A stretch of 64,000 bases of DNA from Nocardioides piscis (lineage in GTDB: Bacteria; Actinomycetota; Actinomycetes; Propionibacteriales; Nocardioidaceae). Positions within the stretch are counted from its first letter, which is position 1, and each line of letters begins with the position of its first letter. Shown here piece after piece: positions 14,491 through 55,423 of the stretch. Below the pieces are notes generated by a model. It was not told the origin of the DNA and did no database searches. It worked only from the letters and a program-made list of their open reading frames with translations. The position numbers and the translations under genes are program-made. The stretch covers positions 682,001 through 746,000 of the forward strand of contig NZ_CP049866.1 of the NCBI RefSeq assembly GCF_011300215.1, given 5' to 3'.

Positions 14491-14639
14491 GGGTGCCTCA
14501 GCCGGGCAACATTCGAGACGCCCCTTTCGTCGCCTGTCGGCGACCGAACATCCGGATCTGCCGATGTCCGTAGCTGAATGGAGCGTGCTTGCGACCGGCA
14601 TGTCAGCGGTTCCGCCCCGAAGGACCCAACCAATAGCCC

Positions 14640-14849: not shown

Positions 14850-15000
14850 CGTCGGAGGCTATCGCACCTCACCGGAGTGGCTCGACGCTATTCCGGGCCC
14901 CGACATGTCTCCTTGGCGATCTGCCGTCTGACGCTCTGCACAACCGCCGGAATCTGCCCGCTTGACGGGGCTATGCCCGCCCGGATCTGGCTCCCCTCTG

Positions 15001-15006
15001 TGTCAA
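15001..15006 (-). promoter_or_regulatory. Outward TTGACA (-35-like) at IS110 right end
   Basis: A perfect TTGACA overlaps the transposase stop and points out of the right end. In circularised IS110 elements a right-end -35 can join a left-end -10 to drive the bridge RNA and transposase. The best left-end candidate (TACTTG, 16417-16422) would be 24 bases away with my boundaries, longer than ideal, so the promoter is unproven. Confidence 0.35.
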
Positions 15007-16196
15007 GAAGCTGTCGGTAGTGGGGTCCTAGGATCTGTGGTGGCGGGTCCGGGAAGTGGCTTGTCCGAAGAGTTGGTCTGGGGCTGTGAGCCGGCCGCGC
15101 TGGAGTCAGAGTCGTTGCCCCGTTGCCCTCCCGGGCCCGTCCTCGAACCAGTAGCGGTGTGGGCGACCGTGTCGTCGAGCATGGTCTTGTAGACGATGTT
15201 CGACAGTCGCCGTTTCAGCGCACGCATCGCTTCCATCGACGTCTTGCCCTCGGCTTTGCGGCGGTCGTAGTAGGCCCGGCCCTCGGTTGCGTTGCGTAGT
15301 TGGACAGTCGCCATGATGTGCACGACCCGGTTGATCTGCCGGTTCCCGGCACGCGACAGCCGATGGCGGACCTGGTCGCCCGAGGACGCGTCGATCGGTG
15401 CGGTGCCGTTCCATGAGGCGAAGTGGTCACGGTCAGGGAAGCGGGTGATGTCGCCGACCTCGACCAGCAACTGGGCTGCCCCAGAGGGTCCGATGCCGTG
15501 CAGGTCCAGCAAGGTGGTGCCGGTGGCCTTGACCAACTCAGTCAGTTCTTTGTTCGCCGCCTTCTTCCGCGCGTAGATCCGTTCCAGGTCTGCGACCAGC
15601 TCGGCGGCGACCCGGCGACGGGTCTTGCCCACGACGTCTCGTGGGCGAGCCTTGGCCAGCAGCGCCTTGGCCTGGGCGGCGGACAAGTCTTTCTTCGCAC
15701 CTCCCGGGACCAGCTCGAGCAGCAGCTGGTGCAGCTGGGAAGTCTTACGGGTGTGCTCGTCGCCCAGCGAGCGGCGGCGATCTACCAGGAGTCGTAGGAC
15801 CGCGAGCTGCTCGTCGTCCACCACGGGTCGTAGCCCGGCCATTCGGGTCCCGACCAGCGCAACCGAGTGGGCGTCAGTGGCGTCGGTCTTGCGTCCTTGG
15901 CCGGTGGCGAAGACTCGCGTGCGTGCTGCCAGCTTCGGTGGGACGTCGACGACTTCCTCGCCCGCGGCGAGGAGTCGGACCGCCACGTGGTGACCGATCC
16001 CATTGCAGCCCTCGATCGCCCAGATGTGGTCCGGGAACTGGCTGACATAGCGCCTCATCTCGGCGAAACCGCCCTGATCGGTGGCGTACCGGCCGCCGCC
16101 GAGGACGGTCTCGTCGGCAGCCATCACCTCGATCGTGACCGACCTCTTGTGCGGGTCCATCCCGATCACCACGCGGGTAGTAGATGTGTTCTTCAC
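15003..16196 (-). CDS. IS110-family transposase (DEDD recombinase)
   Basis: This 397-residue transposase has a RuvC-like N-terminal DEDD domain: D14 (VVIGMDPHK), E62 (IWAIEGCNG), D105 and D108 (KTDATDAHS). The C-terminal Transposase_20 region has LDLHGIGPSGAAQLL and FASWNGTAPIDASSGD, containing the conserved serine, then SRAGNRQINRVVH. It appears intact. The GTG at 16196 is chosen because GGAGGA lies 4 bases upstream; an ATG at 16220 is in frame. The stop codon overlaps an outward TTGACA hexamer (15001-15006). The Ser/Pro-rich last ~50 residues are not conserved in the family as far as I know. Confidence 0.93.
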   Translation of the reverse strand: MKNTSTTRVVIGMDPHKRSVTIEVMAADETVLGGGRYATDQGGFAEMRRYVSQFPDHIWAIEGCNGIGHHVAVRLLAAGEEVVDVPPKLAARTRVFATGQGRKTDATDAHSVALVGTRMAGLRPVVDDEQLAVLRLLVDRRRSLGDEHTRKTSQLHQLLLELVPGGAKKDLSAAQAKALLAKARPRDVVGKTRRRVAAELVADLERIYARKKAANKELTELVKATGTTLLDLHGIGPSGAAQLLVEVGDITRFPDRDHFASWNGTAPIDASSGDQVRHRLSRAGNRQINRVVHIMATVQLRNATEGRAYYDRRKAEGKTSMEAMRALKRRLSNIVYKTMLDDTVAHTATGSRTGPGGQRGNDSDSSAAGSQPQTNSSDKPLPGPATTDPRTPLPTAS

Positions 16197-16227
16197 TTGC
16201 TCCTCCGATGCTCGTCCCATCACTGGA

Positions 16228-16408
16228 TGTCGAGTCGGGAGGGCAACGCTACTTCGAGCCGAGCAAACCCCTCTTGAGCCTCTCCGGACCCTGGCGACGC
16301 CCGGTCCGCGCAGGCCAAATGAGAGCCACACGACTCAGCGTGGGCAGCCGCAATGAGAGCGACGGACCGGGCGCCTGGACCGAGCCTTGCCAGACGTCGG
16401 TCCTGCGT
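16228..16408 (-). ncRNA. Predicted IS110 bridge RNA
   Basis: In the non-coding left end, read in the transposase direction, three structures follow in order. The first is a 5' hairpin 16377-16403 (7 bp GGACCGA/TCGGTCC). The second is a large stem-loop with a perfect 11-bp stem (16363-16373 with 16298-16308) and 54-base loop. The third is a weaker stem-loop (GGGTC 16287-16291 with GACTC 16232-16236). This is the 5' hairpin / target-binding loop / donor-binding loop order of described IS110-group bridge RNAs. The middle loop holds CGCTGAG (16334-16340) and TGGCTCTCA (16320-16328), which fit the two flanks; the last loop holds AGAGGGG (16268-16274), which fits the element's right end. Boundaries are estimated. 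Confidence 0.6.
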
Positions 16409-16541
16409 CAATGAAACAAGTAGCCGCGATGAGTGCCTCTCAGCGCCGCGTTCACACCTATGGACGAGGAGTGGCCCTGACGGGCCTGTCACCGCCTGCC
16501 GTGACCGACACCCGCCTTCGTGACGTTGTCATGATGTGCCG

Positions 16542-47571: not shown

Positions 47572-47648
47572 CGGGCTGTGGCGCAGCTTGGTAGCGCGCC
47601 TCGTTCGGGACGAGGAGGCCGCAGGTTCAAATCCTGTCAGCCCGACCA
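47572..47648 (+). tRNA. tRNA-Pro (anticodon CGG)
   Basis: A cloverleaf is visible: acceptor CGGGCTG/CAGCCCG, anticodon stem CCTCG/CGAGG with loop TTCGGGA (anticodon CGG), T-arm GCAGGTTCAAATCCTGT, discriminator A and an encoded CCA at 47646-47648. Confidence 0.97.
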
Positions 47649-55040: not shown

Positions 55041-55123
55041 GTCCCGAACAGTACGCACCGGGACCGACACCGACCACAGCCCGGCCACGCCCTGTCCACA
55101 GCGACCGGGTCGGGAGCGCAAAA

Positions 55124-55212
55124 GGCCCCCCACGTACCCGACAGAGCTCGCCTACCCTTGCTGCCTTCCGGCCCTGGGGGAGTTCGGTGAGATGCCGCCA
55201 CGTGGGGGTTGC
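55124..55212 (-). ncRNA. ffs: 4.5S signal recognition particle RNA, small bacterial type
   Basis: On the minus strand, the conserved SRP core GGGCCGGAAGGCAGCAAGGG (GGAA tetraloop with the asymmetric internal loop) sits in a long hairpin. The outer stem is ACGTGGGGG/CCCCCACGT (55200-55208 with 55127-55135). Location upstream of dnaX matches mycobacterial ffs. Ends are estimated to within a few bases. Confidence 0.93.
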
Positions 55213-55335: not shown

Positions 55336-55423
55336 GGAGGTATCGCCTAGTGGCCTATGGCGCTCGCTTGGAAAGCGGGTTGGGTTAACGCCCTCGGGGG
55401 TTCGAATCCCCCTACCTCCGCCA
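55336..55423 (+). tRNA. tRNA-Ser (anticodon GGA)
   Basis: Acceptor GGAGGTA/TACCTCC, anticodon stem CTCGC/GCGGG with loop TTGGAAA (anticodon GGA), a long variable arm typical of class II tRNAs, T-arm GGGGGTTCGAATCCCCC, discriminator G and encoded CCA at 55421-55423. Confidence 0.97.

Follow-up and report, generated by a model that had tools for sequence, protein, structure and literature searches.

An IS110-group insertion sequence of Nocardioides piscis with a putative bridge RNA and apparently differing target and donor cores

The window analyzed here, a 64,000-nt stretch of the Nocardioides piscis genome, contains a complete IS110-group insertion sequence on the minus strand, with a long left end, the putative source of a bridge RNA, and a short right end (Table 1). 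This is very probably a bridge-RNA element which joins palindromic REP-like sites with a CGGC-A centre, its target and donor cores being different from each other and its guides fitting the exchanged strands. The class of system is known, and the differing core, together with guides that fit the exchanged strands, appears to be what makes the variant. Neither such a core nor this element was met with in the bridge RNA and IS110 literature searched, which comprised the accessible parts of main texts, mostly outside subscription journals (the sources given below by PMC number are likewise cited from the accessible parts of their texts).

Table 1. Positions of the features of the element and its target site in the window.
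Feature	Positions	Strand	Sequence or extent and basis
Complete element, bounded by its top-strand junctions	14989..16422	-	1434 nt, first base T (of TACTT), final base C (of AGCC); ends common to related copies; un-inserted relatives without the extra C
Left half of target site (host DNA)	16423..16431	-	CATCGCGGC; joined flanks and junction comparison
Right half of target site (host DNA)	14982..14988	-	AGATCCG; joined flanks and junction comparison
IS110-family recombinase gene	15003..16196	-	GTG start, 397 aa; Pfam, motif positions, alignment with IS621 and ISCro4 chains
TTGACA, possible -35 box of a circle-junction promoter	15001..15006	-	Sequence; spaced 18 bp from TTTCAT in the putative circle
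Putative bridge RNA region, approximate extent	16228..16408	-	Window fold and consensus fold of 103 distinct rows
5' hairpin	16377..16403	-	Window fold and consensus fold; two-sided changes in 8/8 consensus pairs
Target-binding loop and its stem	16296..16375	-	Window fold and consensus fold
Donor-binding loop	16232..16291	-	Stem predicted in window fold only; absent from consensus fold
Left target guide (LTG)	16347..16358	-	TCTCATTGCGGC; LT/LTG test, n = 104
Right target guide (RTG)	16314..16323	-	CTCATTTGGC; RT/RTG test, n = 93
Left donor guide (LDG)	16268..16274	-	AGAGGGG; LD/LDG test, n = 95
Right donor guide (RDG)	16248..16254	-	AAGTAGC; RD/RDG test, n = 106

The element, its recombinase and its copies

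The assignment to the IS110 family, already made in a first-pass annotation of the window, was confirmed by matches of the gene product to PF01548 (DEDD_Tnp_IS110) and PF02371 (Transposase_20) with 71.2 and 76.6 bits, respectively, against curated cut-offs of 29 and 21.3. Its DEDD and serine motifs (D14, E62, D105, D108 and S272) align with D11, E60, D102, D105 and S241, which are the DEDD residues and the serine of IS621 (PMC11208158), the N-terminal alignment being weak (8.9 bits with IS621 and 18.5 with ISCro4). Among solved structures the best match was the ISCro4 transposase (9t56, 58.4 bits), a likeness by protein sequence alone; IS621 matched with 51.8 bits. The distance from the core to the start codon is 229 nt in the window copy (median 226 across 106 left ends), and the right end extends about 14 nt past the stop codon; such a long left end with a short right end is the arrangement of the IS110 group and not of IS1111.

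The boundaries were derived from comparison of related copies, which put the left junction at 16423/16422 (CGGC/TACTT) and the right one at 14989/14988 (AGCC/AGAT). In related loci TACTTG or TGCTTG directly follows CGGC, the right ends read TTGACACAGAGGGG or nearly so and then [A/T]GCC, and the flanks outside these shared ends differ. The right flank of a locus in a same-genus genome (L009) is the same as that of a locus in Nocardioides astragali (L035). At another locus (L085) the right flank begins GCC-TACTTAGG, resembling a left end for about 8 bases only, and it was excluded from use.

The host genome (3.78 Mb, one contig) carries a second copy (L002), which is identical across the whole element and has different flanks. 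DNA matches, many of them weak or partial, were found in 207 of 341 genomes of the family, and a scan of contigs gave 141 relatives, the best 80 of which were retained, from Nocardioides, Micromonospora, Terrabacter, Kribbella, Nocardia and other actinobacteria. The suggestion that the window presents such a system in a new host thus carries little weight, close relatives being present in Nocardioides and many other actinobacteria. Altogether 132 loci, own copies included, yielded 106 distinct left ends after omission of duplicates and of loci without a left-end profile hit near the first position of the profile. Elsewhere in the host genome, a left-end-like stretch (L003:1501-1689; G000:C1:2039691-2039879, minus strand) is 68% identical over 189 nt and has no transposase beside it; it has guide-like loops of its own (LE GCTACTA, loop TAGTAGC) and is probably a remnant, though it may be an orphan bridge RNA.

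Structure and guides of the putative left-end RNA

Upstream of the gene and in its direction, the left end folds into a 5' hairpin, a large loop on a perfect 11-bp stem (CGCCCGGTCCG/CGGACCGGGCG) and a third loop. This arrangement, given in the first-pass annotation, held. The single fold is not unusually stable, as 33 of 200 shuffles of the window RNA folded equally well or better (z = -0.96) and 41 of 200 shuffles of a longer stretch folded at least as stably (z = -0.84), so that the structure rests on comparison of the copies. The consensus fold of 103 distinct left-end rows comprised 39 pairs with 95.9% of cells paired, versus 37-44% when slid, and 27 of these pairs showed two-sided changes, versus 10-16 when slid. 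Seven pairs, four of them with two-sided changes, join the head of the left end to the RDG and are probably to be read as guide covariation, because the RDG is complementary to the donor; leaving these out, 23 of 32 pairs changed on both sides. Such changes support well the stems of the 5' hairpin and the target loop; the stem of the donor loop was not formed among these rows. A search of the window against Rfam at the curated threshold gave three matches, none of them at the bridge RNA locus. Presumably, the RNA is expressed, bound by the recombinase and directs recombination.

Guides were taken from the alignment columns and compared with the own DNA of each copy against 10,000 re-dealings. 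With full rows, the match was 0.780 versus 0.702 re-dealt for RD/RDG (n = 106), 0.694 versus 0.656 for LD/LDG (n = 95), 0.627 versus 0.571 for LT/LTG (n = 104) and 0.632 versus 0.560 for RT/RTG (n = 93), each reached by 0 of 10,000 re-dealings, a figure that overstates significance since the copies are related and not independent and re-dealing ignores their kinship. With distinct pairs only, LD/LDG alone was reached, by 12 of 10,000. The RD/RDG test is conditioned, since an RDG match was the requirement under which 103 of the loci were first collected; the group L123-L134, mostly missed by this filter, was recovered by a profile, and most of its members have GCTACTA in both RD and RDG. L019 and L065 were left out of the LT test, rows in which the right end was missing out of the right-side tests, and L022 and L097 additionally out of the RT test. 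The strongest signals lay at positions 4, 6 and 7 for RD and at positions 4 to 7 for RT; the LD bases switch between AGAGGGG, AGAAGGG and AAAGGGG together with the LDG, and at the base preceding CGGC (T or G) LT equals LTG at 0.89 versus 0.48. The LDG has two extra bases ahead of its core part, which are unplaced in the guide model.

The covariation of all four guides with LT, RT, LD and RD, the kind of check that the first-pass annotation had proposed, argues for a bridge RNA of the LE type. The element might instead be an ordinary IS110 element, its left end being a leader or a decayed region and the loop matches by-products of sequence conservation. Single-sequence folds within the shuffle range agree with that reading, as does the kinship of the copies, through which the shuffles overstate significance. 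It is nevertheless very improbable: LT and RT change along with LTG and RTG across copies whose targets are CCAGAT, CCATGA, CCGAAA and CCGGTA (the RTGs fit in those with CCGAAA and CCGGTA), which counts against it because the flanks are host DNA and are not inherited with the element, and the stems change on both sides.

Given a bridge RNA, its guides lie a few bases away from most of those first proposed, in the same loops. The first-pass annotation had set CT cores at 16437-16438, together with the left boundary, and at 14991-14992, with CGCTGAG and TGGCTCTCA as target guides and AGAGGGG and CCTCCC as donor guides. AGAGGGG of the last loop, which equals the right end, stands as the left donor guide; the other three matches were abandoned. 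The motifs are indeed present where they were placed, but they do not track the flanks across the 106 left ends. CGCTGAG occurs in the RNA of only two of these, both copies of the window's own genome, and in the left flanks of the window copy and L119, being absent from the flank of the identical second copy, which thus has the same RNA beside another left flank. TGGCTCTCA is found in 63 of the 106 left ends, and TGAGAG in no left flank other than that of the window copy, so both target matches are attributed to chance. CCTCCC is present in 64 of 106, and the covarying right donor match is AAGTAGC. Related copies have another left end in common, CGGC/TACTT, 14 bp further in, which makes 16437-16438 host DNA. 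With these facts the CT-core version is scarcely credible.

Target sites and core sequences

The joined flanks of 88 sites form an imperfect palindrome of modest dyad symmetry (0.475 versus 0.425, a value that 3 of 10,000 re-dealings attained; for the outer seven pairs, 0.502 versus 0.453, attained by 26 of 10,000; n = 87 for both). The joined site of the window copy, compared with 215 genomes of the genus, gave matches in 18 of them, among these matches to repeat units, some of which stand in tandem arrays of 34-bp period (L149, for example). The targets of the element thus come from a family of palindromic, REP-like repeats, and REP sequences have been described as IS110 targets (PMC11208160). 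For the empty site of the window copy no orthologue was seen in the 215 genomes, where its own flanks and repeat units were matched. With mismatches allowed, target-like patterns occurred in the host genome, depending on the pattern, at 8 places (control 1), at none and at 12 places (control 1).

Several observations concern the repeats themselves. The 34-bp-period arrays, with the unit GCCCTCAACGCGGCAGATCCGGGCGAGCGTAGCC, are present in several genomes of the genus (L149, G253:C1:1226000-1227300; L145, L146 and L147). An un-inserted palindrome unit, CATCGGCAGATCCGG, lies at 14552-14566 (minus strand) of the window, about 420 bp from the element. At L176:1523-2554 (minus strand) a tyrosine-recombinase-like ORF, read from the sequence, ends beside a CGGC palindrome; matches to such a gene end with its palindrome were seen in many genomes of the genus, and L020 is inserted in one.

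To compare inserted and un-inserted sites, 95-bp flanks of 27 inserted sites (16 + 11) were searched in the genus, and the fetched loci were aligned, plus four fetched separately. Outside arrays, six inserted sites had 11 un-inserted relatives over 100 columns or more: L175 for L007 (190 columns, 96%), L205 for L119, L239 for L021, L265 for L022, L255 and L256 for L117, and L176, L183, L190, L201 and L204, which are one conserved locus, for L020. Matches of at least 20 bases on both sides were provided only by L175, L205, L265 and L256 (sites L007, L119, L022 and L117), the comparisons of L020, L021 and L117/L255 resting on one flank plus the palindrome. Nine of the 11 relatives read CGGC-A, L256 reads CGCC-A at the same length, L201 is degenerate, and the joined form CGGCC-A appeared in none of the 11. 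Shorter or array matches mostly agree with CGGC-A (L262 has an added T), and CGGC-A is likewise the reading of the repeat units, which lack one C of the joined flanks.

The junctions follow the top strands, with CGGC on the left in 102 of 106 copies and AGCC or TGCC on the right in 87 of 96. Among the deviating copies, four have at core position 8 the base of the other strand (left CGCC in L063 and L113, right TGGC in L012 and CGGC in L086) and, with the right CGCC of L019 and L070, look like repair towards the other strand; L013, L087, L045, L107 and L129 do not fit such repair, and in L022 and L097 the register is shifted. Because the un-inserted relatives are one base shorter than the joined flanks, we conclude from these alignments that the target core is GC and the extra C element-derived. 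The donor core would then be CC, as judged from the relatives and the junctions, so that the two DNAs have no common core dinucleotide and share only the last C, the second C at the right junction coming from the element; the assignment assumes recombination without base loss or gain.

An identical GC core in target and donor, with an element that uses only rare CGGCC-A palindromes and four guides that pair conventionally, was our first model; it seemed to fit the guides and failed against the un-inserted relatives. Core identity is the rule in IS621 (PMC11208160), and GC does stand at the expected place in LTG, RTG and RDG. Un-inserted sites with the added C also exist, and an un-inserted relative alone is compatible with the inserted lineage having carried a CGGCC-A variant. 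Yet the added C is missing from all the un-inserted relatives of the six sites, and it is no commoner than an added G: in the 215 genomes the un-inserted CATCGGC-AGATCCGG (CATCGGC-AGATCCG G) was counted 82 times, and forms with an added C, G, T and A 12, 13, 3 and 2 times, respectively (112 rows counted by eye, control columns zero). Another search gave 62 short palindromes and 3, 2 and 1 with an added C, G and T (3 of 68 with the added C), of which only the ratio of the forms is usable, as the reversed control gave roughly 70 by eye. With the added C as rare as the added G, an identical-core element must fill a large share of the rare sites while leaving all the common ones empty. The four off-pattern junctions described above (L063, L113, L012 and L086) likewise speak against identity, which we consider improbable, and differing cores are retained below.

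Five of the 12 added-C loci were inspected: three lie in a common sequence context, a fourth is unrelated and the fifth (L222, G149:C10:734) is palindromic. This unit and L144 (G249:C1:736966, at the end of a repeat) may be rare variants or traces of past recombination.

Strand exchange and relation to known systems

In the proposed mechanism, the left-end RNA would present a target loop (LTG and RTG) and a donor loop (LDG and RDG), and the recombinase with this RNA would join a circular element to a palindromic REP-like site with a CGGC-A centre. Top-strand joining would follow the last C, leaving CGGC of the target at the left junction and [A/T]GCC of the donor at the right one; the cleavage chemistry is presumed, and the window copy may be active. 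In IS621-style numbering, positions 6-9 are CGGC in the target and [A/T]GCC in the donor. At core position 8 the complement of the RTG is C and that of the RDG is G, each in 106 of 106 RNAs, and thus each guide mismatches its own substrate and fits the incoming strand. With RTG fitting the donor strand and RDG the target strand at the core-facing base, full pairing would be attained only once the incoming strand is in place, as if the IS621-style handshake pairing were shifted into the core. Top-strand cleavage in IS621 follows core position 9; after exchange, RTG pairs with the donor core and RDG with the target core, the guide bases opposite positions 6-7 being paired with the non-cognate strand, and their pairing with the cognate strand blocks exchange (PMC11208158). 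The mismatch might favour exchange here; that in this natural bridge RNA with differing cores the pairing itself drives exchange to integration and opposes re-sealing of the substrates we give an even chance.

The circle junction would be expected to read GGGG[A/T]GCC-TACTT, here GGGGAGCC-TACTT, and an identical core would give GGGGAGC-TACTT. A circle or tandem junction pattern occurred at 19 places in 17 of the 341 family genomes, the one closest to expectation (G236) lying in unrelated sequence, and two scans of viral contigs gave no circle junction. The TTGACA box and TTTCAT form a possible promoter across the junction of the putative circle, its second box being poor in divergent copies; promoters spanning circle junctions have been described for family members (PMC11208160, PMC11187229).

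The element resembles IS621 in recombinase family, in having a left-end RNA with the order 5' hairpin, target loop, donor loop, in the guide order LTG-RTG-LDG-RDG, in handshake pairing and in junctions consistent with top-strand cleavage behind core position 9. It differs in its low protein similarity, in its target sequence and in the core, which is CT in both DNAs of IS621 and here GC in the target and, as inferred, CC in the donor, so that the handshake reaches position 8. Conservation of the CT core is reported among IS621 relatives, without being made a defining trait of the family (PMC11208160). IS110-type seekRNA elements, such as ISEc21, also have a long non-coding region upstream of the gene, and their targets vary between elements, while no differing core is described in the accessible part of the source (PMC11187229). 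Palindromic extragenic repeats serve as targets of REP-inserting IS elements too (PMC1525189; ISPpu9, PMC8450116), whereas the repeat family here, with its 34-bp arrays, would be a different sequence.

As the IS621 core is identical in both DNAs, natural sequence cannot reveal there whether core-facing guide bases are tuned to one strand. Differing cores with a fit to the exchanged strand in 106 of 106 RNAs would provide independent comparative support for the handshake model; they suggest that core identity need not hold and point to a route for less reversible bridge-RNA insertion. The 88 joined natural target sites together with their guides constitute a resource. The other RNA genes seen in the window, two tRNA genes at 47572-47645 and 55336-55420 (plus strand) and a small SRP RNA gene at 55121-55211 (minus strand), are ordinary.
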